A DNA stretch of 38,392 nt from contig JAJZBN010000017.1 of the NCBI GenBank assembly GCA_021798875.1, positions 1 to 38,392 of the forward strand, given 5' to 3'. The position numbers and the translations under genes are program-made. A model generated the notes under the pieces. It was not told where the DNA came from, searched no databases, and worked only from the letters and a program-made list of their open reading frames with translations. This stretch comes from a bacterium (GTDB lineage Bacteria > SZUA-79 > Acidulodesulfobacterales > Acidulodesulfobacteraceae). How positions within the stretch are numbered: position 1 is the first letter of the stretch; every line of letters starts with the position of its first letter. This document shows, one piece after another, positions 4,257 through 37,449 of the stretch.

Positions 4257-4258
4257 AA

Positions 4259-5320: not shown

Positions 5321-5355
5321 GTGTAGTGTTAATCCCGAAATAAGGAGACATAAAT

Positions 5356-6558: not shown

Positions 6559-6559
6559 A

Positions 6560-6592: not shown

Positions 6593-6644
6593 TAAAAAGA
6601 TTAATTAATATTAATTAACACGGCGAGTTAATGGAGGATGTTTT

Positions 6645-7688: not shown

Positions 7689-7689
7689 A

Positions 7690-8466: not shown

Positions 8467-8477
8467 GAGGAAAAAAT

Positions 8478-9266: not shown

Positions 9267-9270
9267 ATAA

Positions 9271-10194: not shown

Positions 10195-10210
10195 ATTTTA
10201 ATTTAAAATT
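10194..10210. terminator. AT-only inverted repeat between the convergent sHdr and GT39 genes
   Basis: AATTTTA (10194-10200) and TAAAATT (10204-10210) form a 7-bp stem overlapping the GT39 stop codon, with T-rich flanks. As the only structure in an 8-bp convergent gap it may serve as a weak bidirectional terminator. Confidence 0.3.
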
Positions 10211-17325: not shown

Positions 17326-18609
17326 ATGCTCAGATTTTTGACGGCTGGGGAGTCGCACGGCAAGGGACTTATTACAATAATAGACAATTTTCCTGCGGGC
17401 GTTAAAATAGACGAAGAGTTTATAAACGAAAAATTGAGGCTTAGGCAGTCGGGCTACGGCAGGGGCGCAAGGCAGAAAATAGAAACCGATAAAATAGAAT
17501 TTTTATCCGGAGTCAGGGGCGGTTTAACTACCGGTTCTCCGATATCGTTCTTTATAAAAAATAAGGATTACGAAAACTGGCGCGATAGGATGGACGTATA
17601 TAAACCAGTTCCGGAAGAAAGTAAAATTCATACGCCGAGACCTGGTCACGCCGATTTTGCCGGTTCGATAAAATTTGGGTTAGACGATATTAGAAATGTT
17701 TTGGAACGTTCCAGCGCAAGGGAAACTGCGTCGAGGGTTGCGGTCGGAGCGATTTGCCAGATATTTTTGAAAAATTTCGGCATCGAGTTTGCTTCTGCCG
17801 TGCTGAACATCGGCGGAATCGGAATTGAGACGGCTGAAATTTTGCCTGACACACATGCGGCTAAGAAAAAGGGGTCAGAATTGAATTCTGACCCCTTTTT
17901 CTCCGAAACAGCCGAAACAGACCGCTTTTCTATAGATATTTTCGACCCTGCTATTCGTCAAAATATCGAAAACTCCGAGCTCCGCATGCCGCATCCGGAA
18001 CTTGAAGAAAAAACTAAGGATTATATCGACAAAATGAAAGCAGAAGGCGATACCGTCGGCGGACTGATTACGGCTCAGGTAAAGGGCGTACCGGTGGGTC
18101 TTGGCAGTTTTACACAGTGGGACGAGAAATTGGATGCCCATATATCGATGTCCGTAATGAGCATTCAGGCAATTAAGAGCGTAGAAATCGGCGCCGGCGT
18201 AAAATCTGCTTATCTGAAAGGTTCGGAATGCCACGATTCGATATACAGTCAAAGCAGCGATAAAGAGAAAAGGAGGGATTCTGCCGTGTGCGGTTTTTAC
18301 AGAAAAACCGACAATGCCGGCGGCATAGAAGGCGGAATGTCTAACGGGGAAATAATAAGCGTAATCTGCGCAATGAAACCGATACCCACTTTAATGAAAC
18401 CCTATCTTGACACCGTTGACTTAAACACCTGCGAAGCAAAAAAAGCCTTTCTCGAAAGGTCAGACGTATGCGCCGTTCCGGCGGCGTCAATCGTCGTCGA
18501 ATCCGCCATCGCTTTTTCTATATGCTATTTTTTCCTCAAAAAATTCGGCGGCGATAGTTTTGCCGAAATTAAAAGAAATTACGACGGATATATAAAAAAT
18601 GAGCAGTAA
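17326..18609 (+). CDS. aroC: Chorismate synthase with an in-frame palindrome-encoded insert
   Basis: A 427-residue chorismate synthase, the last step of the shikimate pathway (EPSP to chorismate, needing reduced FMN). Diagnostic segments are TAGESHGKGL (6-15), RLRQSGYGRGARQKIETD, HTPRPGHADFAGSIKFG, RSSARETASRVAVGA, EGDTVGG and NAGGIEGGMSNGE. Family members are often 350-400 residues; the excess includes residues 180-193, encoded by a palindromic repeat with core KGSELNSDPF, and flanking low-conservation residues (about 170-205). A second variable stretch, SQSSDKEKRRD, lies near 305-318. Catalytic segments are intact, so function is likely kept. GGGAGG 11-16 nt before the ATG is the ribosome site. 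Confidence 0.95.
   Translation: MLRFLTAGESHGKGLITIIDNFPAGVKIDEEFINEKLRLRQSGYGRGARQKIETDKIEFLSGVRGGLTTGSPISFFIKNKDYENWRDRMDVYKPVPEESKIHTPRPGHADFAGSIKFGLDDIRNVLERSSARETASRVAVGAICQIFLKNFGIEFASAVLNIGGIGIETAEILPDTHAAKKKGSELNSDPFFSETAETDRFSIDIFDPAIRQNIENSELRMPHPELEEKTKDYIDKMKAEGDTVGGLITAQVKGVPVGLGSFTQWDEKLDAHISMSVMSIQAIKSVEIGAGVKSAYLKGSECHDSIYSQSSDKEKRRDSAVCGFYRKTDNAGGIEGGMSNGEIISVICAMKPIPTLMKPYLDTVDLNTCEAKKAFLERSDVCAVPAASIVVESAIAFSICYFFLKKFGGDSFAEIKRNYDGYIKNEQ
17864..17902. repeat. Coding palindromic element, copy 3 (inside aroC)
   Basis: Perfect 19-bp arms (17864-17882 and 17884-17902) around a central G. The core is identical to the folE2 copy: GGGGTCAGAATT-G-AATTCTGACCCC. The outer arms differ: AGAAAAA/TTTTTCT. 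It is read as K-K-K-G-S-E-L-N-S-D-P-F-F-S, the same frame as in folE2. Confidence 0.93.
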
Positions 18610-18683
18610 AATTGACTTTTATTTATATGTTTAATATACTTTAAATATATAGCAAATCTTTATTATGGAGAAATAGTATCAAT

Positions 18684-18941
18684 ATGAATGCAAGTATAAT
18701 CGATATATTTAATGCGCTTAAAGACAAGTTAGGCGAAAAGGAGGCAAAAACCATAACCGAATATTTCGAGGTTATGAACGAAAATTGCAAAAAAGAAAGT
18801 CAGGAAAATATGTTAAAGACCTTTGCAACTAAAGATGATCTAAATAAAGCGGTATTAACATTGATAAAATGGTTTATAGGCATTCAAATTGGTTTCGTTG
18901 GTATTATAGGTTTATTAATTGAGTTAATGTTAAAAAAATAG
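18684..18941 (+). CDS. Small coiled-coil protein with C-terminal membrane anchor
   Basis: An 85-residue protein: an acidic/basic helical N-terminus (1-55), the segment TFATKDDLNKAVLTLIKW, then one hydrophobic helix at about 62-82 and a Lys tail. The layout resembles DUF1640/CCDC90-like small bacterial proteins, which have a coiled coil followed by one membrane span. Function is unknown. GGAG lies about 13 nt before the ATG. It sits between aroC and aroK, but nothing ties it to aromatic synthesis. Confidence 0.65.
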   Translation: MNASIIDIFNALKDKLGEKEAKTITEYFEVMNENCKKESQENMLKTFATKDDLNKAVLTLIKWFIGIQIGFVGIIGLLIELMLKK

Positions 18942-18971
18942 ACTATAAAAAACAAAATTTATAATAAAATA

Positions 18972-19559
18972 TTGAAAACAAAAACTAATATTTTGCTAAT
19001 CGGCTTTATGGGAGCGGGGAAGACTGAAGTCGGGAAGATTCTTGCAAAAAATAAAAAATTTAATTTTATTGATTTGGACTGTTTAATAGAAGCGCAAGAG
19101 GGTATGAGTATTACGGAAATATTTAAACAAAAAGGCGAGAGTTATTTTAGAAATCTTGAAACCGAAATTTTGAAAAGAATAGATAACAATAAAACAGACA
19201 TATATAAATTAAAATTTGAAGAAAAATGTTTAGAAATAAACAGCCATGAAAGTAAAAACTGGGTAATATCTACCGGCGGAGGAATGCCGGCGTTTAACGG
19301 CAACATTAAATTGCTTAAAAATATAGGGACTGTCATATACCTTAAAGCCTGCGCAAAGACTATTTACGACAGAATAAAATCCGAAGTACACAGACCTGTT
19401 CTGGGCGGAAGCGGTTTTACCGAAGAAACCATTGCCGAAAAACTTAAGGAAAGAGAAAAATATTATGAACAGGCAGACTTTGTTATATACACCGAAAATT
19501 TAACTCCGCCCGCGGTAGCCGAAGAGATAGGGATTTTTATTAATAAAAATCAAAATTAA
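18972..19559 (+). CDS. aroK: Shikimate kinase
   Basis: A 195-residue cytoplasmic kinase that phosphorylates shikimate with ATP. The Walker A motif is GFMGAGKTEVGK (11-22), the substrate residues are DLDCLIE and FRNLETE, the Walker B-like GGG loop is VISTGGGMPAF, and the lid arginine segment is RPVLGGSG followed by LKEREKYYEQAD. Between FRNLETE and VISTGGG there are about 20 more residues than usual (around 70-90, Lys/Glu/Asn-rich), making it longer than typical shikimate kinases (about 170). The only start that leaves room for the P-loop is TTG at 18972; no Shine-Dalgarno is visible, so initiation may depend on coupling or be leaderless. Confidence 0.9.
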   Translation: MKTKTNILLIGFMGAGKTEVGKILAKNKKFNFIDLDCLIEAQEGMSITEIFKQKGESYFRNLETEILKRIDNNKTDIYKLKFEEKCLEINSHESKNWVISTGGGMPAFNGNIKLLKNIGTVIYLKACAKTIYDRIKSEVHRPVLGGSGFTEETIAEKLKEREKYYEQADFVIYTENLTPPAVAEEIGIFINKNQN

Positions 19560-20825: not shown

Positions 20826-21233
20826 ATGAATAATTTATCGTTAAACATAAATTCGATAAACGTTAATAATAATACCAACTTGACCGAGCCTAACAACGTC
20901 AATATTCCAATAAACGTTAATACGAATAAAAATGCTGCAAGTCAAAATACCGACATTGCAGGTAATGCCTCAAATAAATCGGCGAATGTATCTTCAAATC
21001 AGTCTGGGTCGGCAAAAGAAAAAGAATTAAGCAAACAAATCGAGGCTAATCTTAATCCCTCGCCTATGTTGTCTCAGGCAATGCTTTTTAAATGGGATGC
21101 AAGCGCCGGAGGGGCGGTAATTAACGTAGTGGATTTTAAAACCGGTAAAGTATTAGCGCAAATTCCGCCTAATTCGGTTTTAAAAATAATGTCTAATTAC
21201 CAGAAAGGTTCGCTGTATAACGGTAAGTTATAA
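20826..21233 (+). CDS. flaG: FlaG-family flagellar protein
   Basis: A 135-residue protein. The N-terminal 75 residues are Asn/Ser-rich and low complexity. The C-terminal half has the FlaG domain: MLFKWDASAGGAVINVVDFKTGKVLAQIPPNSVLKIM, in which the V-D-x-x-T-G-x-V-x-x-Q-I-P-P pattern is diagnostic. FlaG influences filament length in several bacteria. It lies between flagellin and fliD, the usual order. GAAGTGA 8 nt upstream is the ribosome site. Confidence 0.88.
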   Translation: MNNLSLNINSINVNNNTNLTEPNNVNIPINVNTNKNAASQNTDIAGNASNKSANVSSNQSGSAKEKELSKQIEANLNPSPMLSQAMLFKWDASAGGAVINVVDFKTGKVLAQIPPNSVLKIMSNYQKGSLYNGKL

Positions 21234-22791: not shown

Positions 22792-23271
22792 ATGGATGCA
22801 ATTTCAAAATACGAAAACATAAACGTTAATACCGTCGATCAGGGAACGCTTATAATAATGGCTTACGAAGGCGCTATAAATTTTGTAAAAGAAGCAAAAG
22901 AAAGGCTTGCTCAGAATGATTATGCCGGCAAGTCTATTAATATATCCAATGCAGTTTCCATTATTAACGAGCTTAATGCCCGTCTCAATATGGAAAAAGG
23001 CGGCGAAACGGCAAAAAATTTAAATAAACTTTATACTTTTTTGTCTATTCACCTTACTACCGCGAACTTAAAAAAAGATGCCCACAAACTTGACGAGTCG
23101 CTCGTTATACTTCAAAATCTTTTAAACGGATGGAAGATTATAATAGAAAAAGACAGAATGCAGAATCAAAAATCTACGGTTTCCGGCGTTAATTCTGCGA
23201 TAAATGCCGAATCTGTTCAGTCAGGCATTTCAGGCAAACCTGTTTCGGGCGGCATTGCCGTATCCGCTTAA
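22792..23271 (+). CDS. fliS: Flagellin export chaperone FliS
   Basis: A 159-residue helical cytoplasmic chaperone that keeps flagellin unfolded before export. The N-terminal start ISKYENINVNTVDQGTLIIMAYEGAINFVKEAKERL matches the FliS pattern, and the helix NISNAVSIINELNARLNMEKGGETAKNLNKLYTFL follows. A 30-residue Ser/Gly-rich tail extends beyond the usual length (about 130). AAGGAGG lies 13 nt before the ATG. The gene ends 12 bp from the first glycosyltransferase, so the flagellar set and the glycan genes may be one transcript. Confidence 0.93.
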   Translation: MDAISKYENINVNTVDQGTLIIMAYEGAINFVKEAKERLAQNDYAGKSINISNAVSIINELNARLNMEKGGETAKNLNKLYTFLSIHLTTANLKKDAHKLDESLVILQNLLNGWKIIIEKDRMQNQKSTVSGVNSAINAESVQSGISGKPVSGGIAVSA

Positions 23272-23283: not shown

Positions 23284-24906
23284 ATGAATATATTTGTATT
23301 TCAGACGAGACGAATAGGCGATTTTTTTCAGTCTGTTCCGCTTATAGAAACTTTAGCGCAATCATATTCCGAAAACGGTGTCGAACCTAAAAAAATCGAT
23401 ATTTTAATAGACGAAAGTATATTCGAAATCAGAAATATTTTTAACGCAAAAATAAATTTTGTTACATATCAAAACCTTTTAAACCCTCTCGGAATTTCCG
23501 TTAAGCGTTTAAACGAATTTGGCAGCTTTTTATCCGATTTTACTTCCGATTATAATCTTGCCGTAAACTTAAACTACGATTTTACGAATGCTCTTTTTTT
23601 AAGCTTCTTTAAAAATAAAAAGAAAGGTTTTATCGTTTTAGATAAATCTCAAAAAACAGCAGAATCTATTTCAAGAAGCGGCGCGGCAAACTATCTTTTT
23701 AATATCGTAAAAAACCGGAGTCTTAACAGGATAAACATTGCGGATTTATATTCTCTTATAGGGACCGAAAAACCCGCCGAAATAAAGACTTCGTATAGCA
23801 TTATAAACTTAAAAAAGAAAACCGAAAGCAAAAAAAAACTGTTAAGCGGCGAGTCCGTCAGAATTTGCATTTCCATAGGAGCAACCCATCCGAAAAGAAT
23901 CTGGCAGCCCGAAAATTACGCAAAGTTAATAAGCATCCTTTCTTTAAATTTAAACTGCGAAATAATAATCGTAGGAACGGCCGAAGAATCGTCCGCCGCA
24001 GAAGAAATAAAAAGCAAACTGTCTGACGGCCTAAATATTATTGATTTGACGGGAAAGACCAAACTTAACGAACTTATTTATCTTATAAAAGACTTCGATT
24101 TAATTATCGCATCCGATACCGGAACTTTGCACATAGCGCAGATTTTTAACATTCCGTCTGTTTCTATTTATATCGGCAACGCCAATTTTTATGAAACAGG
24201 TCCGCACGTAAATGATTCTTATGTAATCCATTCTGTTATGCAATGTTATCCGTGCATGCAGCATGAACCATGCCGATTTAATTACGCATGCAAAAACGAT
24301 ATAAACCCCGAAGACGTTTTTAACCTTGCCTTTATGCAGATTATTAAAAATAAACTGCATTATTCTTTTAAAGAACAGGGAATTAAATTTTCCGACCTTA
24401 AAAAAAGAGTTATCGCAAACGCAAAAAAAGGAAGTTTTTCCGTAGCAGTCTGCAAACATTTAGATTCGGTCCATTTTTATCCTTTATATAAAAGAAAAAT
24501 ATCAAAAAACGAACTTGCTTCTGAAATATTAAAATTCTGCTGGATTAGCGTGCTTTCAAAAAATAGCCTAAAAATAGATAAAAATAATGTTTTGAGATAT
24601 ACGAACAAATATTATAAAATAGACGAAAGCGTTCTTAGCTCTTTAATAAATGAAATTTATTTTATAAAAGACGTTTTTGAAAACGCCGGTAAATCGTTTA
24701 GCAAAGAAGATAAAAGAGATGAAAAAAACGTTTTATATTTCGAAAAATTTAAAGACGCCGTTAAATCTCTCGGTTTAAACTACGGTTATCTTAAACTTGC
24801 CTGCGATTATTTTATAGACGAATTAAATTCTTCCGGAATGCAGAAAAGTTTTGACGATATAATTTTGCTTTTAGATAACGCCGTTAAAATTTTAAAAATG
24901 TTTTAA
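23284..24906 (+). CDS. GT9-family (heptosyltransferase-like) glycosyltransferase
   Basis: A 540-residue cytoplasmic GT-B enzyme. The N-terminus MNIFVFQTRRIGDFFQSVPLIETL is the GT9 Rossmann start, and residues about 195-300 give the donor-binding half: ISIGATHPKRIWQPENYAKLI, then LTGKTKLNELIYLIKDFDLIIASDTGTLHIAQIFNIPSVSIY. A Cys-rich loop, CYPCMQHEPCRFNYAC, follows. The last 180 residues are an extra helical region absent from classical WaaC/WaaF. GT9 enzymes use ADP-heptose or related donors. Placement directly behind fliS suggests the flagellin as acceptor. No Shine-Dalgarno is seen, so coupling to fliS is likely. A second GT9 with the same layout follows at 26764. Confidence 0.87.
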   Translation: MNIFVFQTRRIGDFFQSVPLIETLAQSYSENGVEPKKIDILIDESIFEIRNIFNAKINFVTYQNLLNPLGISVKRLNEFGSFLSDFTSDYNLAVNLNYDFTNALFLSFFKNKKKGFIVLDKSQKTAESISRSGAANYLFNIVKNRSLNRINIADLYSLIGTEKPAEIKTSYSIINLKKKTESKKKLLSGESVRICISIGATHPKRIWQPENYAKLISILSLNLNCEIIIVGTAEESSAAEEIKSKLSDGLNIIDLTGKTKLNELIYLIKDFDLIIASDTGTLHIAQIFNIPSVSIYIGNANFYETGPHVNDSYVIHSVMQCYPCMQHEPCRFNYACKNDINPEDVFNLAFMQIIKNKLHYSFKEQGIKFSDLKKRVIANAKKGSFSVAVCKHLDSVHFYPLYKRKISKNELASEILKFCWISVLSKNSLKIDKNNVLRYTNKYYKIDESVLSSLINEIYFIKDVFENAGKSFSKEDKRDEKNVLYFEKFKDAVKSLGLNYGYLKLACDYFIDELNSSGMQKSFDDIILLLDNAVKILKMF

Positions 24907-24924: not shown

Positions 24925-26757
24925 ATGAATAATTCAAATATGAGCCGTAACGATTTAAATTTCGAGTTAGTTCAAACCAAAGCCGTCTCCGCCCCATCTT
25001 TTAAGATTAACGGAATAACCGTCCATTCCGTTTACGACCCTGTTTCGGAAGCGCAGAAATGGGCGGCTCAGGTTACGGACAGGATTAATTCGGAAGGAAT
25101 ACCCGATAAAATTTTAATTTTCGGGTTTGGGGCGGGTTATCACGTAAAAGCTTTAACCGATTTATTAAAAAAAGACGAAAAAAAAATAAAAATAGAAGTC
25201 ATCGAGCCGACGAAAGAATCTTTTGAATTTATAAAAAATAATTTCGACGTTGCCGAATTGCAGTCTAATTCTAATATAAATACTATTATTACGGTCTTGA
25301 ACAGCGTAAGCGAAAACCAATATTTAGACGTTTCCGCAGTTTCCCAAAAATTTGAACTGGATAAAGGCGTAATATTATTTTGCGAACTGCCGTCGTATAA
25401 AAAAATATTTCCCGAAGAATATACCCTGATACATAAACTTCACGGAATTAACCAGTTCTTTACGCCGTCTTCTTTTAAGGTTTTGGTTGTCCAGCCTATG
25501 TACGGCGGTTCTTCTACAATCGGAAATTATTTGTATTCGGCTCTTTTAAATCTTGGTTACGACGCAAAAATACTCGACTTTTCAAAATTTTACGACGCAT
25601 ATAAATATATGGGTGAATTTACCCCTAACGAAGACCACGTAAATTCTTTAAAGCAAAGTCTTGTAAACCTTATGTCCGAAGCTCTTCTTTCTTCGGTTTT
25701 TAACGAACCGCCGGATTTAGTTATTTTTATGGCTCAGTCTCCTGCTACTGAAAGAACCATGATTAAACTAAGAAGCATGGGTATTAAAACTGCATACTGG
25801 TTCGTTGAAGATTTCAGGACGTTTACATACTGGAATACCATAGTAAAAAATGTGGATTATTTTTTTACTATACAGAAAGACGATTTTTTTGCGGAGCTTA
25901 AAAATATTGGGGCGGATAACTATCATTATCTTCCTTTGGCCTGCCTTCCAAATTTTCATAAAAAAATTACCGAAATTAACGAAGAAGACAGGATAAAATA
26001 CGGCTCCGACGTAAGTTTTGCAGGTGCGGGTTATTACAACAGAATAAACGTTTTCGCACAGCTTGTCGATTTTAATTTTAAAATATGGGGAAGCGACTGG
26101 TACGTCGGACTGCCTTTAAGTTTGTTGATACAGGACGGAGGCAAAAGATTTACGGAAGAGGAAGCGGTTAAGATATATAACTATTCCAAAATAAATATCA
26201 ACCTTCATTCTTCTAAGTGGCACTGGGACATAAATCCAAACGGAGATTTTTTAAATCCCAGGGTTTACGAAATTTTGGCCTGCGGAGGTTTTCAGCTTGT
26301 GGACAGGCGCAGGTACATGGACGGAATTTTTGAGGACGGAAAAGATTTGGTAGTTTTTGATACGGTGGACGATTTAAGAAAAAAAATAAAGTACTATCTT
26401 GCAAACGAAGAGGAAAGGCTCGCCATTGCCGCACACGGCAGGGAAACCGTCGTTAAAAATCATACTTACGAACGCCGCGTCCGCGAGATGATGAATATAA
26501 TACTTCTTGGTTCATACGAACAGATAAAATCTAAACTTGAAACCAGAAAGCAAAATATCTTGGAGCTTTTGAAAGAAACCGAAGGAAACAAAGAACTTCA
26601 CGACTTAATTATGCAGTTTTCCGACAAGAAATCGCTTTCTATAAGAGATATGGCGGAGCGCATAAAAAGCGGAAAGGGCAGGTTGTCTAAATCTGAAGCA
26701 ATGATTTTAATGCTATGGGCGATAAAAACAAAATTAGTCAAACTCGAAGGGCTGTAA
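24925..26757 (+). CDS. CgeB-like GT-B glycosyltransferase with N-terminal extension
   Basis: A 610-residue protein. The first 180 residues include an open Rossmann-like segment, IPDKILIFGFGAGYHVKALTD, and IEVIEPTKESFEFI, resembling the N-terminal part of flagellin-modification (Maf-type) or methyltransferase-like folds. From about residue 190 (KVLVVQPMYGGSSTIGNYLYSAL) the protein is a CgeB/GT1_2-type transferase, with KTAYWFVEDFRTF, YHYLPLACLPNFH, and the donor region LNPRVYEILACGGFQLVDRR followed by HGRETVVKNHTYERRV. CgeB-type enzymes are common in spore-coat and flagellar glycan loci. It sits 18 bp after the first GT9 and 6 bp before the second, so the three form a unit. The sugar is unknown. 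Confidence 0.85.
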   Translation: MNNSNMSRNDLNFELVQTKAVSAPSFKINGITVHSVYDPVSEAQKWAAQVTDRINSEGIPDKILIFGFGAGYHVKALTDLLKKDEKKIKIEVIEPTKESFEFIKNNFDVAELQSNSNINTIITVLNSVSENQYLDVSAVSQKFELDKGVILFCELPSYKKIFPEEYTLIHKLHGINQFFTPSSFKVLVVQPMYGGSSTIGNYLYSALLNLGYDAKILDFSKFYDAYKYMGEFTPNEDHVNSLKQSLVNLMSEALLSSVFNEPPDLVIFMAQSPATERTMIKLRSMGIKTAYWFVEDFRTFTYWNTIVKNVDYFFTIQKDDFFAELKNIGADNYHYLPLACLPNFHKKITEINEEDRIKYGSDVSFAGAGYYNRINVFAQLVDFNFKIWGSDWYVGLPLSLLIQDGGKRFTEEEAVKIYNYSKININLHSSKWHWDINPNGDFLNPRVYEILACGGFQLVDRRRYMDGIFEDGKDLVVFDTVDDLRKKIKYYLANEEERLAIAAHGRETVVKNHTYERRVREMMNIILLGSYEQIKSKLETRKQNILELLKETEGNKELHDLIMQFSDKKSLSIRDMAERIKSGKGRLSKSEAMILMLWAIKTKLVKLEGL

Positions 26758-26763: not shown

Positions 26764-28488
26764 ATGAAAAATATAATCATACTGAATCTCACCCGCATGG
26801 GCGATCTCATCCAGTCCACCGCTCTTTTTAAAAAAATTAAATTAACCTATCCGGAAAGCCATGTTAAACTTATAATTTCTAAAGAATTTGCGGAGATTGC
26901 GCCGTTCCTTCCGTATATAGATGAGATTAAACCTATAGACGTTACCGGACTGTCCGAACTCCTGAAAGCAAATAATTTTGAATTTACGATAGATGTCGTT
27001 AAATCGTTAAACGATATATTCGACGATATCTTAAACGTAAACTACGACCTTGCGGTCAACCTTTCCCACGATGAATTCAGCGTTTATTTCCTTTATATTT
27101 TAAATTCGTTAAAAAATATAGGAATATCGGTAAACCGCGAAGGAATTATAATATCCAACGACGAAATGATAGCTTATATATTTTCCGCGGTTAAAAACAG
27201 AAAAGTAAGCGTTTTAAACCTTGTGGATCTCTACGAAAGAACAATAGACGCAAATAAAACTCGGCAGCATAAACTGCACGTAAATAAAATTTATTTAGAT
27301 ACAAAAAAAAATAGTGAAGAACATGATGGAAATAGCGGAAATAAGGAGTTTGAAGTTTTAAAAAAATACGGTATAGAAGAAAGCGATAATATCGTTTCTT
27401 TTGCCATAGGAGCATCGACCGAGCTAAAAAAATGGCGTTACGACTATTTTGCGGAACTTGCCAAGATGTTTTTAAACGGCGACACCAAAACTAAAGTAGT
27501 TTTACTAGGGGCAAACTACGACGTTAAAGCAGGCGGTTTTATAGAGAGCATCGTTAATAACGAAAGGCTGATTAACCTTACCGGTAAAACTTCCGTTTCC
27601 GACCTTGTTTATATAACGCGCCGCTCAAATCTTCTTATAACCCACGATACCGGAACGATGCATATAGGGGTTGCCGTCGGAACTAAATTAATCGTTATTT
27701 ACACCGGAAACGTAGGCTTTTTGGAAACGGGACCTTATGTCGAAAACCGGCTGCTCGTAGTGCCGGATATAGGATGTTTTCCGTGCGATTTTAATTTAAA
27801 ATGCTTAAATCCGGTTTGTCAGGGATTAATTAAACCTGAATATATTTACGATATGTCTTTAATGCTATTAAAAACTGAAACAGGCTATGCGGAAAAACTT
27901 TTTAAATACAAAAATACCGGCATTATTCCTTACTTATCCCGTTTTGATTCTAAAAAATTCATCGATTATCTGCCCGCCGTAAAAATTAAATTAAATTTTA
28001 AAGATTTGAAGCTTAAAATGCTTAAGTTAGCCCTTGAACATTATTACGAAGGAGATTTTTGGAAAATAGACGAAAACGAAATTCAACTTTTTCTTGACTG
28101 TTTCGAGGGCATAGAATATAATCTTAGTTTAGATATCGAAGAAGAATTAAAGTCCGTTGAAACCCTTATCGCTTTATGTAAAAGAGGTATATCGGAGACT
28201 AAAAAAATGGTCAATCTTGCTCTTACGTATCCTTTCAATTCTAAAAAAATAGACGAACATACCGGCAATATAAAATCTATCGATTTTGAATTAAAATATA
28301 TCTCTTCGGTTTACGACGACTTGTCTTTATATAACCAGATTCACGTTATAAACCAGAACAGTTCCGTCAGTTACGATTTATTCGGTCTCGCCCTTGATTC
28401 GCTTAAAAATTATTCGAGGTATAAGCTTCAGTTAAATATATTTAAAAAGGTTTCTTTAATATTTTTAGATAAAATTAAAAATTTATAA
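26764..28488 (+). CDS. Second GT9-family glycosyltransferase
   Basis: A 574-residue paralog of the protein at 23284. It has the start MKNIIILNLTRMGDLIQSTALFKKI, the donor region FAIGASTELKKWRYDYFAELAKMF, LTGKTSVSDLVYITRRSNLLITHDTGTMHIGVAVGTKLIVIY, and again a Cys-containing loop, CFPCDFNLKCLNPVC. The C-terminal 190 residues are helical and unassigned, as in the paralog, which suggests both belong to one subfamily of long GT9 enzymes. The ATG lies 6 bp after the CgeB-like gene. Confidence 0.86.
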   Translation: MKNIIILNLTRMGDLIQSTALFKKIKLTYPESHVKLIISKEFAEIAPFLPYIDEIKPIDVTGLSELLKANNFEFTIDVVKSLNDIFDDILNVNYDLAVNLSHDEFSVYFLYILNSLKNIGISVNREGIIISNDEMIAYIFSAVKNRKVSVLNLVDLYERTIDANKTRQHKLHVNKIYLDTKKNSEEHDGNSGNKEFEVLKKYGIEESDNIVSFAIGASTELKKWRYDYFAELAKMFLNGDTKTKVVLLGANYDVKAGGFIESIVNNERLINLTGKTSVSDLVYITRRSNLLITHDTGTMHIGVAVGTKLIVIYTGNVGFLETGPYVENRLLVVPDIGCFPCDFNLKCLNPVCQGLIKPEYIYDMSLMLLKTETGYAEKLFKYKNTGIIPYLSRFDSKKFIDYLPAVKIKLNFKDLKLKMLKLALEHYYEGDFWKIDENEIQLFLDCFEGIEYNLSLDIEEELKSVETLIALCKRGISETKKMVNLALTYPFNSKKIDEHTGNIKSIDFELKYISSVYDDLSLYNQIHVINQNSSVSYDLFGLALDSLKNYSRYKLQLNIFKKVSLIFLDKIKNL

Positions 28489-28526: not shown

Positions 28527-29168
28527 ATGAAACTATATATCGACGGGAATTTAACCGATACCGTTCTAAGCGCCGGCAGTATGTACGACATTTTATACGG
28601 CGGCAGCATAAAAAGTTTTATTCCTGAAGGCAAAGTAATAAAAAACATAGCCATAAACGAGACACAATACGACGATTTAATGCTGGACGCCGATAAATCA
28701 AAAGCATTTAAACTTGGAGATACCGACGAAATTAAAATAACAACTATGAATCAGCTTGAGCTTTTAAACGGTTCGTTAAACGCCGCAATAACGTTTTTAA
28801 ACGAATTTAAAGCCGGAATAGTAAAAACTACGGATGAAATAAGATGGGGAAACAGCGCCGGAGGGTTTAAAGATTTTTCGGCATATTTAAGCGGACTTAC
28901 TATGTTTATTCAGATTATGGAAAAAATATCCCAGTTTTTGAAAATTGATTACAACAACATGGTTTACGACGGCAAAAGCGTGCAGTCTTATTTTAACGAC
29001 CTCGAAAAAATTCTTTCTTCCGTTTTATCGACGCAGGTAGAACAGGATTACGTTCTTCTTGCCGATATAGTCGAGTTCGAACTTAAGCCGAATATAGATA
29101 TTTGGGGAAATATTTTGAAAGATATGAAAACTAAAATAAACGACGCTTCCAATTCAGAAGGTAAATGA
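28527..29168 (+). CDS. Protein of unknown function in the flagellar-glycan unit
   Basis: A 213-residue soluble protein I do not recognise. Residues 1-75 look like a small beta-rich domain (MKLYIDGNLTDTVLSAGS ... VIKNIAINETQYDDLM ... FKLGDTDEIKITTM), reminiscent of beta-grasp folds. Residues 76-213 are helical, with several acidic-hydrophobic helices. There is no signal peptide and there are no cysteines. AACGGAGG precedes the ATG by about 6-8 nt, so it is well translated. Its last four bases overlap the sulfotransferase start (ATGA), so it is co-translated with that enzyme and may be a partner or a flagellin-binding adaptor for the glycan enzymes; that role is a guess. Confidence 0.7.
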   Translation: MKLYIDGNLTDTVLSAGSMYDILYGGSIKSFIPEGKVIKNIAINETQYDDLMLDADKSKAFKLGDTDEIKITTMNQLELLNGSLNAAITFLNEFKAGIVKTTDEIRWGNSAGGFKDFSAYLSGLTMFIQIMEKISQFLKIDYNNMVYDGKSVQSYFNDLEKILSSVLSTQVEQDYVLLADIVEFELKPNIDIWGNILKDMKTKINDASNSEGK

Positions 29169-30085
29169 CATTAAAAAAGAAAAGGATTGTTGCCGTTATA
29201 GGGGTTCAGCGGAGCGGTACGAGCGCAATTACAAGGGGGCTTCAAGTTTTAGGAGTCGATCTTGGAAGTTTTTATGGACCAAACGTCGTAGCTCCTGATA
29301 ATGAGAAAGGATATTTTGAGGATTTTGAAATAAGCCATTTAGACGTAAGCATGTTGAACTCTATCGGATATACGTGGGATAATCCGGTTTTACCGATATT
29401 CGACGACAATACTAATATGGTTTTATCGGCTTTTTATCATATTGCCGCTAATATCATTCAAAGGAGGCTCGAATCGACCGATTTGTTCGGCTTTAAAGAC
29501 CCTTTAATCGCTCGGCTTTTGCCTATATGGAACGATGTATTTAAAGGCGAAGGGGCTGAAGTATCCTATATAATAGCATGCCGCAATCCTTTAAGCACTG
29601 CAAAATCGATGCAAAAAAGAGACGGCTTCGACATAGTCAAAGGGTGCTATATATGGCTCGGCTACATTATAGCTTCCTTAATTTATTCGGCAGGCTATAA
29701 CCGCATAGTCGTCGATTACGACGAGTTGATGAAAGACCCTGAAAAACAGCTTAAAAGGACGTCAGAACGTTTAAATTTAAAATTTGACGCCGGGAGTCGG
29801 GAATTTACTGAGTATAAAGAATCATTTTTGAGCGAATCCCTAAGGCATACAAGTTTCGGGATAGACGAACTTGCCGCAAATGCCGACATTCCGCCTAAAA
29901 TTGCCGAGCTTTATATTTTGCTTAAGCACATTGCGATGGATGAAATTTCGATAGACAGCGTTGAAGCGTCGGCCAAAATTAATAAAATTTATTCTTGGAT
30001 GACCGAACTACGTTCGACGCTTTTATATATGCAGGCACAATTCGACGCATTGCTTTATTTAAAAAAAGATATTAATAATAAATAA
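29165..30085 (+). CDS. PAPS-dependent sulfotransferase family protein
   Basis: A 306-residue protein with the sulfotransferase P-loop-like 5'-phosphosulfate motif GVQRSGTSAITRGLQ (about 13-27), and a 3'-phosphate motif CRNPLSTAKSMQKRDG (about 139-154) with the Arg and Ser expected to hold PAPS. The family moves sulfate from PAPS to hydroxyl groups of glycans or small molecules. Next to it lies cysC, which makes PAPS, and it overlaps the preceding gene by 4 bp. It is in the flagellar-glycan unit, so a sulfated surface or flagellar sugar is the natural inference. The acceptor cannot be told from sequence. Confidence 0.85.
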   Translation: MTLKKKRIVAVIGVQRSGTSAITRGLQVLGVDLGSFYGPNVVAPDNEKGYFEDFEISHLDVSMLNSIGYTWDNPVLPIFDDNTNMVLSAFYHIAANIIQRRLESTDLFGFKDPLIARLLPIWNDVFKGEGAEVSYIIACRNPLSTAKSMQKRDGFDIVKGCYIWLGYIIASLIYSAGYNRIVVDYDELMKDPEKQLKRTSERLNLKFDAGSREFTEYKESFLSESLRHTSFGIDELAANADIPPKIAELYILLKHIAMDEISIDSVEASAKINKIYSWMTELRSTLLYMQAQFDALLYLKKDINNK

Positions 30086-30132
30086 AGATACTAGGATTGC
30101 CGAATTAATTAAATATTTATCGACCTGAAAAC

Positions 30133-30738
30133 ATGAATGCAAGAGATAATTCAAACCTATGTATCGTTTGGCACGAACATAAAGTAAAAAGGAGCGACAG
30201 GGAAAAACTTAAAAACCAGAGAGGCTGCGTTTTGTGGCTTACTGGACTTAGCGGCTGCGGTAAAAGCACAATAGCCAATATGCTTGAGGAGCGGTTAAAT
30301 GAAAAAAGACGCCATACTTATCTTTTAGACGGCGACAATATAAGGCACGGGCTTAGTAGCGGGCTGGGATTTTCCGAAGAAGACAGGTTAGAAAATATAA
30401 AAAGGGTTGCCGAAGTTGCCAAACTTTTCGTAGATGCGGGAATTATCGTTATAGCATCTTTTATTTCGCCTTTAAGGAAGCACAGGCAGACGGCAAAGGA
30501 AATAATAGGCTCCGGCGATTTCGTCGAAATATTTATAGACACTCCTTTTCACGAATGCGTTAAAAGGGATGCCAAGGGCTGGTATAAAAGGGCGTTAAAC
30601 GGTGAAATAGAAAACTATACGGGCGTCGATTCTCCCTACGAAAAGCCGGAAAAGCCGGACGTGCATATAAAGGCCGTCGAATCGGAGGCTGAAGAAGCGG
30701 TTAAAGTAATTATAAAATTCCTTGAAAATAATTTATAA
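30133..30738 (+). CDS. cysC: Adenylylsulfate (APS) kinase
   Basis: A 201-residue kinase that converts APS and ATP to PAPS. Walker A is GLSGCGKST (about 38-46; many CysC have GLSGSGKS), followed by DGDNIRHGLSSGLGFSEEDRLENIKR, FISPLRKHRQTAKE and the C-terminal PYEKPEKPDVHI, all family marks. It is a stand-alone enzyme with no fused sulfurylase. Its position after the sulfotransferase indicates a dedicated PAPS supply rather than assimilatory sulfur reduction, since no cysDN, sat or cysH is near. No clear ribosome site precedes the ATG. Confidence 0.94.
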   Translation: MNARDNSNLCIVWHEHKVKRSDREKLKNQRGCVLWLTGLSGCGKSTIANMLEERLNEKRRHTYLLDGDNIRHGLSSGLGFSEEDRLENIKRVAEVAKLFVDAGIIVIASFISPLRKHRQTAKEIIGSGDFVEIFIDTPFHECVKRDAKGWYKRALNGEIENYTGVDSPYEKPEKPDVHIKAVESEAEEAVKVIIKFLENNL

Positions 30739-30752
30739 AATTGATTTTTAAA

Positions 30753-31925
30753 ATGGATTTTAACAGATTTAGTTTCGGCGTAAATATATACGGTTATATG
30801 CAGTCCGAAAAAGGGCTCGGAACGGCAGTGCGCTCGGATATCTATTCGCTTAAATCGGTAAAAATTCCTTTTGCGTTAAATAATTCAGGCGATGCCGGTT
30901 CAGCAAACGTGAATGCCGAATTTAATTCTTTTTCTAATGAAAATCCCTATTTATTTAATTTAATTCATATTAATCCTAACACGATAATTAAATTGGAAAA
31001 CGATTCCAATATTTATTTTCATGAGTACATAGCAAAATATACAAATTATTTAAACGGGCATTACAATATAGGTTATTGGGTCTGGGAACTGGATACTATC
31101 CCCGAATACTGGGTTGCGTTATCGAAATATGTAGATGAAATATGGACGCCTTCCTACTTTTCCATGCAGGCCATATCTAAATCGTTAAACATACCCGTTG
31201 CAAGAATACCTCATTCTATCGAGATTACCGAAAATTCTTTCAATAAAGTAATAAAAAAAATAGACTTAAAAATCTCCGACGATGTCTTTCTCTTTTTATT
31301 TATATTCGACGCCGGCAGTTTTATCGAACGAAAAAATCCGTTCGCGTTGATAGAGGCTTTTAAAAAGGCATTCAAACCGGATGAGAAAGTAATGTTATTC
31401 ATTAAATCTTCCCGTTCAAACTTTAACAGGGCAAAGTTTTATGAAATGTTAAATGCAATTAAAGGTTATAATATTACCGTTTCAGATTCGGTTTTGATGC
31501 GCGACGAGATTTATTCTCTTATCTATGCCTGCGACTGCTATGTTTCCCTTCACAGGTCTGAAGGTTTCGGCTTGACTATGGCGGAAGCCATGGCTCTCGG
31601 CAAGCCGGTAATAGCTACCGGATATTCCGGAAATATGGACTTTATGAATATGGATAACAGTTATCCCGTCGATTATCATTTAGTTGCATTAGACAGAGAT
31701 TACGGTCCTTACCAAAAAGGTAATTATTGGGCAGAACCGGATATAAACCATGCGGCGGAATTAATGCGGGAGGTGTTTGAAAAGAGAGAAGAATCGACAT
31801 CTGTAGGCGCAAAAGGGAAAGATTATATTAAAAAATATTTCAGTCCGGAGACGGTTGGCAAAATATATAAAGCGAGGCTGAATAATATTATATGGGAATA
31901 TGAAGGTAGTATAAACAAATATTAA
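30753..31925 (+). CDS. GT4-family glycosyltransferase
   Basis: A 390-residue GT-B enzyme. The donor-binding motif is HRSEGFGLTMAEAMALGKPVIATGYSGNMDFM, with the two glutamates of the GT4 E-x7-E signature. The N-terminal acceptor half has FGVNIYGYMQSEKGLGTAVRSD and GHYNIGYWVWELDTIPEYW. I chose the ATG at 30753; a TTG at 30741 would add four residues (MIFK). The first residues align with the paralog at 33414, supporting the ATG. Its best-conserved block is nearly identical in DNA to that paralog. It begins 14 bp after cysC, as part of the same unit. Confidence 0.87.
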   Translation: MDFNRFSFGVNIYGYMQSEKGLGTAVRSDIYSLKSVKIPFALNNSGDAGSANVNAEFNSFSNENPYLFNLIHINPNTIIKLENDSNIYFHEYIAKYTNYLNGHYNIGYWVWELDTIPEYWVALSKYVDEIWTPSYFSMQAISKSLNIPVARIPHSIEITENSFNKVIKKIDLKISDDVFLFLFIFDAGSFIERKNPFALIEAFKKAFKPDEKVMLFIKSSRSNFNRAKFYEMLNAIKGYNITVSDSVLMRDEIYSLIYACDCYVSLHRSEGFGLTMAEAMALGKPVIATGYSGNMDFMNMDNSYPVDYHLVALDRDYGPYQKGNYWAEPDINHAAELMREVFEKREESTSVGAKGKDYIKKYFSPETVGKIYKARLNNIIWEYEGSINKY

Positions 31926-31954: not shown

Positions 31955-32867
31955 TTAATAAAAATTATTACAAATAATGTCGGAGAATTTTTTGATATTG
32001 TTTCTTATATATAAAGGAAAACTGTCATCTATTGGAACACAATATGAATAAAAAAGATTTTCAGGAGTTGATGTATGTAAATGAATAGAACGAGAATCTA
32101 AATTTGCTGTGCGTATATGAGAAAAATGCCAACCACCGTTTTCAATAAAATTAATATAATCTGAATAATCGGGAAGAGCATTATAAGGCATATGCGTAAG
32201 AATTCTAAGGGCTTGAGGAAGTGTAACATTTTTATAATGTGTCATAACCGAACACGATGCATAGAAAGATAAAGAACTACCTGACAAGTTGATATTAACT
32301 CTTTTTTCAAAATTAATATAATCAGAATAAAACTTATGCTTGAAAATTTTTATTCCAGGTTTATCTTTATATAAAAATATTTTATCTGCTTTAGGAATTT
32401 CGTCTAAATCCGATATTATTACGATATCATCAGGCTCACAGTTTAAGCCTGAAAGTATCATGTTTCTTTGGTAATGTTCCCTTTTCCACGAAAGTCTTAT
32501 CGAATTGTCTTGAGCGACAATTTGAGAAATAAACCCGGTAGAAAATCTGCTTAATGCTTTTTTGGTAGCTATTTCTGTTTTCTTTTGTTCAATTGAAATA
32601 CTATCATTATTTAATAAAAAAAAATCTAAAGGATTTAATTGATCTAAAATTTCATCCGGCGGGAAATTAACAACAATATAAATGATTTTATTATGGAATT
32701 TTTTAAATCTTTGCTTGTTTTCTTTGTAGTAAAGGGGGTTTTTCTTTGCCTTGATGGTTCTTTGTAGCTTCTACAATTACGAATTTATCGATTATTTGAT
32801 ATAATTCGTTTAGTCGAATTTCCAAAATATCAAGTTCGTTAGCAAGGATAAAACAATCGTAAATCAT
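31955..32867 (-). pseudogene. GT17-family glycosyltransferase, broken by a frameshift
   Basis: Read on the minus strand from ATG 32867: MIYDCFILANELDILEIRLN, then FVIVEATKNHQGKEKP, which is the start of GT17 (beta-1,4-N-acetylglucosaminyltransferase-like) proteins. At the run of five C bases (32738-32734) the frame shifts by one. With four C the reading would continue LYYKENKQRFKKFHNKII and join, without a break, the remaining frame through SDLDEIPKADK, the DxD-containing site, to the stop at 31955. The span is 913 nt, one more than a multiple of three (303 codons plus stop). Without the correction only the 168-residue C-terminal frame from 32461 is open. It is the only minus-strand gene in the island. 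It may be a real pseudogene, a phase-variable C-tract or a homopolymer error. Confidence 0.8.
32734..32738 (-). other. Frameshift site in a C5 tract (GT17 gene)
   Basis: Five consecutive C on the coding strand (G on plus), preceded by five A. One C less restores a single conserved GT17 frame. The tract is short for slipped-strand phase variation, but homopolymer slippage or sequencing error is possible. Confidence 0.7.
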
Positions 32868-33043: not shown

Positions 33044-33417
33044 ATGATTTTAATTTATAATTTTAATAATACGCGTTTTAGGGAAATTAACGCCGGTTGC
33101 AATATAAACGTTACTTTCGCCATAAAATGGCTTTTCGATAACGAGGAGTCGGACATAATAATGTAGGCCACGGCCATATCGAAGGAACCTACTCCCAAAA
33201 CGAGCAATATTTCATTGAAGAAAGGCGTGATATATCCGAAATAATTCATCCTAAATTTATTTTTCCGAAAGACGATTATAATATAGATATAAATTCTTTA
33301 ACGGCGGAGTTAGAAAACAGCAGAATAACGATTAAACAGTTGCAGGATGCATTAGACAAATTACTGGAAGCCTATGCCTTAAAACAAGTAAAAGAAGGAA
33401 AAGACGGAACAATATGA
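33044..33417 (+). pseudogene. Decayed gene fragment upstream of the GT4-GT2 gene
   Basis: Two adjacent frames form one protein-like reading. The first runs from ATG 33044 through REINAGCNINVTFAIKW to LFDNEESDIIM and stops at TAG 33164-33166. The second continues as VGHGHIEGTYSQNEQYF, then an acidic-helical tail, and ends at TGA 33415-33417, overlapping the next gene's ATG by the string ATGA. Loss of one base near 33163 explains the break. The N-terminal part is missing or lies in the AT-rich sequence before it. The ATGA overlap shows the gene was once coupled to the 33414 gene. I do not recognise the family; the C-terminal coiled coil is seen in several glycan-processing proteins. Confidence 0.55.
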
Positions 33418-35879
33418 AACATAATTTAAATACGGATAAATTTCCTTTCGGAATAAACGTATCAGGGCTTATTCAGTCGGAAAAAGGGCTCGGGTCGGCG
33501 GTAAGGTCGGACATAGAAGCGCTTAAAACGGCTCGTATCCCTTATGTTTTAAACAATATTACCGATTTAGGTTCCGTTAATACCGATAAAACTTACGATT
33601 CAAAAGATTTTTCCCAAGGCAATCCTTATCTTTTTAATTTGATACACGTAAATCCCGACGTATTCGTAAATTTTGCCAATGAAGCTAATATGCCTTATTT
33701 CGACGGGCATTACAATATAGGCTACTGGGTCTGGGAACTTGACGAATTTCCGGAAGAATGGGCACGGCTGGCTTATTATCTTGACGAGATTTGGACGCCA
33801 TCCGATTTTTCTTTTCAGGCTATTTCCAAAGCTGTTTTAAAAACCGTCAAAATTCCGGTAACGAAAATTCCGCACTGTATTTCTTTATCGCCTTCGCCCG
33901 AAAATATTCCGATAGGAAAAGATGTTGTAAGGCGCGCTTTAAATATACCGCCGGATGTTTTTACTTTTCTTTTTATTTTCGATTTTCAGAGCGAAATAGA
34001 AAGAAAAAATCCTTTTGCCGTAGTTGAAGCTTTCAAGAAAGCCTTTACGCCCGCGGATAAAGCAATGCTGTTCCTAAAAACATCCCATTCCGAATTTAAT
34101 AAAAAAGAATTTTACCGGCTGTTAAACTCGGTAAAGGGTTATAACATTACAATAGTAGATTCTGTTTATTCGAAAGAGCAGATTTATTCATTAATGAATG
34201 CCTGCGACTGCTACGTTTCTCTTCACAGGTCGGAAGGTTTCGGCCTGACTATGGCTGAAGCCATGGCTCTCGGCAAGCCGGTAATAGCGACGGGATATTC
34301 CGGCAATATGGATTTTATGAATAAAGATAACAGTTTTCCCGTCGGTTACAGGCTCGTCAAAGTGGACGGCGATTACGGAGCGTATAAAAAGGGCAACGTG
34401 TGGGCGGAGCCGGACATCGGCGAAGCGGCGGATTATATGCGACATGTGTTCGACAACGGGAACGAATCTGAGGCTGTCGGGTCAAGGGGCGGAGGGTTTA
34501 TAAAAAATTATTATTCTTCCGAGGCAATAAGCGAAAAATATAAAGGAAGACTGAATAAGATTATAGCGGAATATGAAGGAGGAGGCAAAAATTATAATTT
34601 TGAAAATATAAATAATAATATATTTACAAATTATAATCCAAAAGTTAGCGTATGTATACCAGTTTACAATAGAAAGCAGTATGTAGAGCAATGCATTCAG
34701 AGTGTATTATCCCAAGATTATAATAATCTGGAAATAATTATTGTAGATGACTGCTCAAATGACGGTGCTGTAGATTTAATAAAAAAATATTTAATAGATA
34801 CTCGAATAAGATTCTATCAAAATGAAAAAAATTTAGGTATGACTGCTAATATAAAAAAAACATTAAATTATGCAACCGGTGAATGGGTAGCTTTTTTAAG
34901 TAATGATGATTATTGGCTAGATCATACTTTTATTTCTCAAGTAATAAATCGTGTAAAATATTCTAATGATGTAACCGGAATTTGCGGCGGTGTTTGTATA
35001 GTTTATGAGAAAGAACAAAATAAGATTGTAAACTATGCAGACAATGCCGATTTTAAAATAAATGGGAGAGAACTATTTTTAAAGGGATTAAATGCAATTG
35101 GACCCTATATAACAAATTTTAACGCTTTAATAGCAAAAACTTCACTTGCAAAAAGTTATTACAATCAGATTAATGATGCAGTTATAACTGGCGGCGATGA
35201 TTATTATTTTTGGCGTTTATGCTTAGAAGGAAATATTTATTTTTTAAGAAAACCTTTTTTGTGTTACAGATATCATGGCGATAATATTTCTATAACTCGT
35301 TCACCGGAAGATTTTATTTCAAGATTAATTTATACTGCTGCAATACCTATTTTGGCGTATAATGCAGCTATTAAAAAAAATGAAATACCGACCATAGTTT
35401 TAGATAAATGGTTGTTAAAAAATATAATATTATATATTGAGAATTATTTAACCATAGACAATTGTGAGAATGTCAAAAATGCTTACGAAAACGTTCTAAG
35501 AGCTATGGATTTATCAATAGAAAATTTTTCTTTTAAAGCATTATTTTCAAGATTAAATGATATAAAAAATTTAGAAAACAAAATATATTTTCATTCTGAA
35601 TCAATAACATTTAAAGATTTTGGGAAAATGGATATGAAAAGTGAATTAGAAATAAAAGAATATTTTAAAAATTACAAAATCAATTTAGCAGAATATGAAC
35701 AATATTTTAATAAGGACGAAAAAATAAAAAAAAATATAATTGAAAATTTTAAACATGATTTAGAATTAGTAGGAGGCTTAAAATATAATATGAATACAGT
35801 GAAGTGTTTTAAAAATTTAGGTATAGATGATAAAAATATAAGAAATTTTTTGGATATATATGTTTATTCAAAGATTTAA
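33414..35879 (+). CDS. Two-domain GT4-GT2 glycosyltransferase
   Basis: An 821-residue fusion. Residues 1-390 are a GT4 enzyme paralogous to the 30753 gene, with FGINVSGLIQSEKGLGSAVRSD, GHYNIGYWVWELDEFPEEW and the E-x7-E motif in HRSEGFGLTMAEAMALGKPV. Residues about 403-640 are a GT2 (GT-A) domain: PKVSVCIPVYNRKQYVEQCIQS, IIIVDDCSNDGAVDL and the metal-site region FLSNDDYWLD. The last 180 residues are helical and unassigned. The DNA changes character at the junction (about 34590): the first part has the moderate GC of the island, the second is strongly AT-rich. The start is supported by GAAGG upstream and by alignment with the paralog. Two enzymes in one chain may add successive sugars. Confidence 0.86.
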   Translation: MKHNLNTDKFPFGINVSGLIQSEKGLGSAVRSDIEALKTARIPYVLNNITDLGSVNTDKTYDSKDFSQGNPYLFNLIHVNPDVFVNFANEANMPYFDGHYNIGYWVWELDEFPEEWARLAYYLDEIWTPSDFSFQAISKAVLKTVKIPVTKIPHCISLSPSPENIPIGKDVVRRALNIPPDVFTFLFIFDFQSEIERKNPFAVVEAFKKAFTPADKAMLFLKTSHSEFNKKEFYRLLNSVKGYNITIVDSVYSKEQIYSLMNACDCYVSLHRSEGFGLTMAEAMALGKPVIATGYSGNMDFMNKDNSFPVGYRLVKVDGDYGAYKKGNVWAEPDIGEAADYMRHVFDNGNESEAVGSRGGGFIKNYYSSEAISEKYKGRLNKIIAEYEGGGKNYNFENINNNIFTNYNPKVSVCIPVYNRKQYVEQCIQSVLSQDYNNLEIIIVDDCSNDGAVDLIKKYLIDTRIRFYQNEKNLGMTANIKKTLNYATGEWVAFLSNDDYWLDHTFISQVINRVKYSNDVTGICGGVCIVYEKEQNKIVNYADNADFKINGRELFLKGLNAIGPYITNFNALIAKTSLAKSYYNQINDAVITGGDDYYFWRLCLEGNIYFLRKPFLCYRYHGDNISITRSPEDFISRLIYTAAIPILAYNAAIKKNEIPTIVLDKWLLKNIILYIENYLTIDNCENVKNAYENVLRAMDLSIENFSFKALFSRLNDIKNLENKIYFHSESITFKDFGKMDMKSELEIKEYFKNYKINLAEYEQYFNKDEKIKKNIIENFKHDLELVGGLKYNMNTVKCFKNLGIDDKNIRNFLDIYVYSKI

Positions 35880-36486: not shown

Positions 36487-37449
36487 ATGAGCTTAGCAAA
36501 TTATAATCAAAATAATCTTTATTCAAAAATAAATTCAAAATATGAGTTAAAATTAAATGATATTGATGTAAATAATAAAAATTCATCAATTTCAATTATT
36601 GTTGACTTAATAGCTGAAAACTCAATAGTGCTTGATGTAGGATGTTCTATCGGATATTTAGGAAAATGGTTAAAAATAAATAAAAACTGCAAAGTATATG
36701 GAATAGACATTAATCAAGATGCATTGAATTATGCAAAACAAGAATCAGGTTATAATGATGTATTTTTGATTGATCTAGATGAATTGAAAGGCGAGGGCAT
36801 AAAAAGACTTAAACAAATAGATGTAGTTTTTGATTATATCGTTATGGCAGATGTTATAGAACATTTAAAAAATCCAGCTACTATATTAATGCTATTATCA
36901 GAAAAACTTAAATTTTATTCAAATTTTATAATAAGTATTCCGAATATTGCCAATGCCGATATTATTTTGAATCTTATTGAAGGCAAATTTAATTATGGAG
37001 ATTTTGGCTTATTAGATAGAACTCATTTAAGATTTTTTACTAAAAAATCTTTTATAGAATTTATAGAATCTATAAATCAAAGTGAATCATTAGATGATTG
37101 CAAATTTCAGATAGATTTTATTGCAAACACTATCTATATATCAGATTTTATTAAAAATGTAATTTCAGAAAAACCAATATTATATAATTTGCTAAAATCA
37201 GCTAATCCAGAGATAGATGTTTTACAAAACATATTTGCATTAACAAAAGTTAAGAAAAATGATAAAGTTTTAAACTTAAAAGAAAAATTTAATATAAAAC
37301 CACTTGACAAAATTTTTAATGTAATTAATGAGTTAATTAACATATCGCAGGATTGTGAAAAAGAACTATATAATAGTAAATTTTTAATCAAGGAATATGA
37401 ATCAAAAATTCAACTATTAAAAAATATCATCGAACATAATTTAAAATAA
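36487..37449 (+). CDS. Class I SAM-dependent methyltransferase
   Basis: A 320-residue protein. The SAM-binding motif I is VLDVGCSIGYLGKWL (about 40-54), motif II is VYGIDINQDALNYAK (about 69-83), and DYIVMADVIEHLKNP (about 119-133) is the post-I region typical of UbiG/Methyltransf_23-type enzymes. ISIPNIANADIILNLIEGKFNYGDFGLLDRTHLRFFTKKSF follows the pattern of glycan-linked methyltransferases. The C-terminal 60 residues form a coiled coil. Codon use is extremely AT-rich, matching the GT2 half of the previous gene. AAGGA 9 nt upstream is the ribosome site. Its acceptor is likely a sugar or lipid-linked intermediate. Confidence 0.85.
   Translation: MSLANYNQNNLYSKINSKYELKLNDIDVNNKNSSISIIVDLIAENSIVLDVGCSIGYLGKWLKINKNCKVYGIDINQDALNYAKQESGYNDVFLIDLDELKGEGIKRLKQIDVVFDYIVMADVIEHLKNPATILMLLSEKLKFYSNFIISIPNIANADIILNLIEGKFNYGDFGLLDRTHLRFFTKKSFIEFIESINQSESLDDCKFQIDFIANTIYISDFIKNVISEKPILYNLLKSANPEIDVLQNIFALTKVKKNDKVLNLKEKFNIKPLDKIFNVINELINISQDCEKELYNSKFLIKEYESKIQLLKNIIEHNLK

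Follow-up and report, generated by a model that had tools for sequence, protein, structure and literature searches.

A sulfotransferase and an APS kinase in the flagellin operon of a member of the Acidulodesulfobacteraceae: a predicted module for glycan sulfation

Genes of the flagellin operon

The window, that is, the whole stretch of 38,392 nucleotides that was analysed, is the entire contig C105 of metagenome bin G000 (2.5 Mb, 97% complete), which we infer to come from an acid-mine sulfate reducer of the order 'Candidatus Acidulodesulfobacterales'. Its forward strand carries the order flagellin-flaG-fliD-like-fliS-GT9a-GT-B-GT9b-ORF213-sulfotransferase (ST)-APS kinase (CysC)-GT4 (Table 1), and the fliS gene is the only one in the genome. 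As a first-pass annotation of this DNA had described, the ST and CysC genes are adjacent and a run of glycosyltransferases begins 12 bp after fliS. That annotation treated positions 28527-30738 as the sulfotransferase and its kinase; both lie there, but the interval holds three genes and opens with the previously unannotated ORF213. The start of ST overlaps the stop of ORF213 by 4 bp, and GT4 starts two bases past CysC. Promoter and terminator scans stayed at chance level.

On the 3' side of GT4, glycosyltransferase genes and a methyltransferase gene make up a variable region that reaches the end of the contig. Within it, a reverse-strand ORF of 168 aa (31955-32461) shares 31% identity over 189 aa with part of a 421-aa ORF of a relative (L055:779-2044) and looks like a glycosyltransferase remnant. 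Just upstream of flagellin (17326-19559) are genes for chorismate synthase and shikimate kinase, apparently as in relatives (L054, L091).

Table 1. Features of the flagellin operon and the adjoining variable region (positions in the window)
Feature	Coordinates	Strand	Basis
Flagellin, 307 aa	19810..20733	+	NCBIfam flagellin models; composition
flaG	20826..21233	+	PF03646, 38 bits
fliD-like, 489 aa	21276..22745	+	Place between flaG and fliS, kept in relatives; named without a family-model scan
fliS, flagellin export chaperone	22792..23271	+	PF02561, 115 bits
GT9a, heptosyltransferase-type glycosyltransferase	23284..24906	+	PF01075, 80 bits
GT-B glycosyltransferase (DUF3880 + Glyco_trans_1_2)	24925..26757	+	PF13524, 123 bits; PF12996
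GT9b, second heptosyltransferase-type glycosyltransferase	26764..28488	+	PF01075, 66 bits
ORF213, 213 aa, no assigned family	28527..29168	+	Fold model; conservation
Putative PAPS-dependent sulfotransferase (ST), 306 aa, allele ST1	29165..30085	+	Motifs, family matches, fold search
APS kinase (CysC)	30133..30738	+	PF01583 and TIGR00455, both over cut-off
GT4-type glycosyltransferase, opens the variable downstream region	30741..31925	+	PF00534, 59 bits
GT4-GT2 two-domain glycosyltransferase, variable region	33414..35879	+	N-terminal half GT4 models, C-terminal half GT2 models
MetW/UbiG-like methyltransferase, variable region	36487..37449	+	PF07021, 52 bits; Methyltransf_11/12/31

The first-pass annotation had also proposed that ST is a PAPS-type sulfotransferase. 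Against the Pfam model Sulfotransfer_3 the protein itself scores 18.9 bits (E 0.0019), below the gathering score of 27; its homologues match that model in 20 of 20 cases at E<=0.01, the best at 5.8e-7. In an alignment of the 20 homologues, the 5'-PSB P-loop (GVQRSGTS, residues 13-20 of ST) is invariant as GV[Q/P]RSGTS save for the Q/P alternative, and it has the form [P/Q]RSGTS/T that we used to define the PAPS-dependent sulfotransferase superfamily (Sulfotransfer_1/_3). A CRNPxSxxxS block is likewise invariant and sets Arg140 and Ser148 eight residues apart (R-x7-S, 3'-PB); this spacing of the 3'-phosphate-binding Arg and Ser is a rule from SULT enzymes. With an AlphaFold model of the protein (pLDDT 83, pTM 0.85), the top 28 Foldseek matches in the PDB were all PAPS sulfotransferases (best E 5.6e-5, probability 0.97-1.00, with modest TM-scores of 0.3-0.5), beginning with the sulfotransferase domains of olefin synthase and curacin, TPST-2 and SULTs. 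Assignment to another P-loop family was considered and rejected, given what the fold search returned and the matches of all 20 homologues. These motifs and the fold model identify ST as a divergent PAPS-dependent sulfotransferase that is predicted to be catalytically active.

The kinase matches PF01583 at 222.6 bits (cut-off 21.1) and the apsK model TIGR00455 at 248.7 bits (cut-off 138.7) with an intact P-loop, GLSGCGKS; by sequence, its assignment as an APS kinase is unambiguous. ORF213 matched no family above cut-off in Pfam and NCBIfam scans, and its model (pLDDT 86), a small N-terminal beta part followed by a helical bundle, had no match below E 0.1 in the PDB. This gene is kept, at 41-92% identity, whether or not a flagellar operon contains the sulfation pair, and is a candidate accessory factor of flagellin glycosylation.

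Joint inheritance and allele exchange among relatives

We examined the genomic context of these genes in 30 genomes of the family. The same order recurs in many of them and is thus not a chance arrangement: members of genus g1 share flagellin-flaG-fliD-fliS-GT9a-GT-GT9b-ORF213-ST-CysC, and genus g2 has the near-identical fliS-GT9a-GT-GT9b-ST-CysC-ORF213, in which ORF213 follows CysC. Both ST and the flagellar-type CysC are present in 16 of the 30 genomes and both are missing from 13; the one genome with ST alone has a contig that ends inside this gene (Fisher p about 1e-7, uncorrected for common descent, the 30 taxa not being phylogenetically independent). Three relatives (G005, G022 and G021) have a complete operon that lacks the pair. 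Another, G019, has lost ST and retains a CysC remnant that starts at residue 47, past the P-loop, a scar that fits a single deletion across both genes. In the flagellar operon of G003, ST has no CysC beside it, although that genome does have CysC genes elsewhere.

In all resolved relatives, the upstream glycosyltransferases stay linked to fliS. Among the eight genomes without a detectable fliS, all have the ATP sulfurylase Sat and seven have no CysC; in the exception (G006, a 220-contig, 86% complete MAG in which no fliS was detected) the pair lies on a contig that begins inside GT9b. In G021, a gene for a SoFic-type protein adenylyltransferase (L080:11116-12219; 397.6 bits, under its cut-off of 550) sits between GT9b and ORF213, a place that the sulfation pair occupies in g2 relatives and that is empty of genes in g1 relatives.

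The sulfotransferase itself varies in place. DNA identity is about 50% over ST and about 90% in its flanks; between G014 and G002 it is mostly 90-97% through ORF213, falls to 35-68% over ST and is back at 98% where CysC begins. This position is filled by no fewer than two widely diverged ST alleles (about 46% protein identity) and, in g2, by a third type (41%). These alignments indicate that ST is an allelic cassette exchanged between strains; seen alongside the variable region that follows CysC, the alleles resemble serotype-style variation with a conserved kinase at its centre. Among relatives, ST and CysC behave as one unit in inheritance, exchange and loss. The functional pairing within a flagellin operon that the first-pass annotation had proposed is borne out by the conserved order, the joint presence and absence, the joint-deletion scar, and genomes whose sole CysC is the flagellar one.

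Two other regions binned with G000 carry comparable genes. The contigs C14 and C19 (L009 and L010) share an exact 127-bp overlap that joins them into a second GT9b-ORF213-ST-CysC block with another ST allele; the C19 cassette is 95% identical to the locus of another species, so that this block could be a second locus or a co-assembled strain. Contig C83 (L012, positions 1-11328) bears an O-antigen-like cluster that includes a CysC of its own, a flippase and a sulfotransferase distinct from ST (347 aa, Sulfotransfer_3). Over 11,328 nt it is 100% identical to a contig that was binned with a genome from another genus, which may reflect recent transfer or mis-binning. Because of these binning doubts, the CysC genes of both regions were left out as evidence for G000.

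When 386 genomes were searched with a profile, relatives of the ST domain also turned up in other families, most of them as fusions with glycosyltransferases. In a second, independent lineage, one of these, an 1852-aa protein with two sulfotransferase domains and GT2, GT4 and TPR parts (G372, L120:9464-15022), is encoded directly after flgF-flgL, a run that includes flgK-flgL, and the flgL-ST-GT link is kept in two congeners (L147, L148), that is, in three genomes of the genus in all. Flagellar operons that contain a sulfotransferase are therefore not confined to the Acidulodesulfobacteraceae group. In L147 and L148, a gene for a small protein (121-133 aa) that contains Cys separates flgL from the gene of the ST-GT protein.

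Supply of PAPS and the likely acceptor

The first-pass annotation had argued for sulfation from a CysC without other sulfate-assimilation genes. This holds at the locus but not genome-wide, where an ATP sulfurylase is present: the only PF01747 protein (Sat) of G000 lies in a sat-aprBA-qmo run, a dissimilatory sulfate-reduction operon whose gene names other than sat were read off translations. Dissimilatory reduction works on APS directly, and PAPS is no intermediate. Because Sat belongs to this operon, PAPS is not needed for reduction, and a better argument than missing sulfate genes is that respiratory Sat would provide APS for a PAPS that the dissimilatory pathway does not use. A single Sat gene is found in 27 of the 30 family genomes. 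A CysQ-type PAP phosphatase was searched for as a marker and proved uninformative, being undetected in G000 and strong in only two relatives; in one relative (G021) the CysQ-type gene directly follows a CysC within a polysaccharide cluster. Clearance of PAP in G000 would need an enzyme other than CysQ.

The proteins of the flagellar cluster have no membrane-spanning peak (maximum 19-residue Kyte-Doolittle value 1.85, against 2.95 for a flippase), and no flippase or polymerase was found in the cluster; glycosylation in the cytoplasm before export is therefore the simplest route. Soluble glycosyltransferase-based systems for flagellin, and the heptosylation of autotransporters, provide precedent for cytoplasmic glycosylation. 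The glycosyltransferases lie in a flagellin/fliS operon and are kept there across relatives, as in a flagellin glycosylation island. We thus regard it as probable that ST and CysC form the module that adds sulfate within an operon for flagellin O-glycosylation, with sulfotransferase activity, cytoplasmic assembly and attachment of the glycan to flagellin all predicted. APS made by the respiratory Sat would be converted in part to PAPS by the operon's own kinase, and the adjacent soluble ST would transfer sulfate from PAPS to a sugar of a glycan that the neighbouring soluble glycosyltransferases are proposed to build on Ser/Thr residues of the central flagellin region. Sulfation and glycosylation would both precede FliS-chaperoned export, and the ST allele, exchanged between strains, may set which sugar or position receives the sulfate.

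That the acceptor is the flagellin glycan is suggested by location, and the pair might instead sulfate a different surface glycan, such as the LPS O-antigen or an exopolysaccharide, while merely being co-transcribed with flagellar genes. The variable glycosyltransferase/methyltransferase island downstream of CysC does resemble polysaccharide loci, and C83, with its CysC and different sulfotransferase beside a flippase, indicates that sulfated polysaccharide clusters occur in the group. We nevertheless judge this unlikely: among the products of the flagellar cluster there is neither a flippase nor a polymerase nor any other membrane protein, its upstream glycosyltransferases do not part from fliS in the resolved relatives, and seven of the eight genomes without fliS have no CysC. 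A role for ST in tyrosine sulfation of flagellin or a cap protein would agree with the presence of tyrosylprotein sulfotransferase-2 among the nearest solved structures (best TM 0.50). The flagellin has only four Tyr (2, 50, 241 and 263), each of them within the conserved termini, which make up the filament core, and in three relatives Tyr residues occupy matching places, with none in the variable centre. A glycan is favoured over sulfotyrosine because of these terminal positions and because the centre is rich in Ser/Thr; moreover, the gene sits among glycosyltransferases, and its homologues elsewhere are fused to them. Tyrosine sulfation is therefore highly improbable. Of the 307 residues of the flagellin, moreover, only 2 are Lys or Arg, against 10 Asp+Glu, an unusual composition in which the scarcity of Lys+Arg is perhaps an acid adaptation.

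It would also be conceivable that CysC serves ordinary assimilatory sulfate reduction and lies beside ST incidentally. Genes of 'Candidatus Acidulodesulfobacterales' have been described as a partial assimilatory pathway, without sulfite reductase (PMC6776010), and G000 encodes one protein with a PAPS_reduct-type domain (PF01507). This sole PF01507 protein is a 772-aa fusion to an N-terminal sulfatase (PF00884; L052:3379-5697, on G000:C110 at about 89.4-91.7 kb), falls below cut-off in every CysH/CysD model, and has a CC...CxxC pair and no ECG motif. Such a pair is typical of APS, not PAPS, reductases. A requirement for CysC in sulfur assimilation was rejected, as many Sat-positive relatives lack the gene and the flagellar copy is the only full CysC in two near-complete genomes (G014, 100% complete, and G016, 99%). 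Since ST and CysC are moreover lost together, we give assimilation very little credence. With a flagellin glycan as the preferred acceptor, the flagella of the source bacterium probably bear a coat of sulfated sugar.

Relation to known systems and implications

Rhizobial NodH/NoeE and other surface-glycan sulfotransferases are served by a PAPS supply of the NodPQ type. As in the present locus, a dedicated PAPS-making enzyme is encoded with the sulfotransferase; the rhizobial acceptor is a secreted lipo-oligosaccharide and the enzyme a bifunctional ATP sulfurylase/APS kinase, whereas here only the kinase is encoded and APS would come from the respiratory Sat. Bacterial flagellin O-glycosylation islands, such as those of Aeromonas and of Clostridioides difficile type B (PMC7874193, PMC5207246), share the linkage of glycosyltransferases and methyltransferases to flagellin/fliS and the strain-variable content, and differ from the operon described here in its sulfotransferase and APS kinase. 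The nearest parallel is Halobacterium salinarum, in which the N-glycan of the archaellins and S-layer is sulfated by two sulfotransferases, VNG1056C and VNG1057C (PMC11980604, PMC6591318). There too, sulfotransferase genes in a glycosylation cluster sulfate the glycan of a swimming-filament protein, as is predicted here, but that system concerns an archaeal archaellin with N-linked glycans made by a lipid-carrier and oligosaccharyltransferase pathway, whereas the present one would involve a bacterial flagellin, soluble transferases, an APS kinase alongside and exchange of ST alleles. The N-glycans of Sulfolobus acidocaldarius carry sulfoquinovose, a sulfonate that Agl3 produces from UDP-glucose and sulfite (PMC4388408); here, too, the surface glycoproteins of an acidophile bear a sulfur-containing sugar with a permanent negative charge, though a sulfonate rather than the PAPS-derived sulfate ester predicted here.

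Exact-phrase and multi-term searches of the open literature, with subscription journals outside their coverage, returned no report of a sulfated bacterial flagellin. Sulfate on flagellar filaments is thus documented for archaea, with none found reported for bacteria, and an operon that holds both the donor-making kinase and the transferase offers a genetically simple, directly testable bacterial case. Sulfate esters are anionic at pH 2-3, where carboxylate sugars are uncharged, and a possible, if doubtful, extension is that the module provides an acid-adapted and antigenically variable flagellar coat on a flagellin nearly devoid of basic residues, in which recombination that exchanges ST alone would generate flagellar 'sulfo-serotypes', for example against flagellum-binding phages. 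Transcripts of fliC and fliD were among the most abundant of 'Candidatus Acidulodesulfobacterales' in the study that described the partial assimilatory pathway (PMC6776010). Our analysis suggests that the flagellar CysC works in glycan sulfation and not in that pathway. It further points to another reading of 'partial assimilatory sulfate reduction' in these organisms, in which at least part of the CysC would serve glycan sulfation by tapping the respiratory APS pool.
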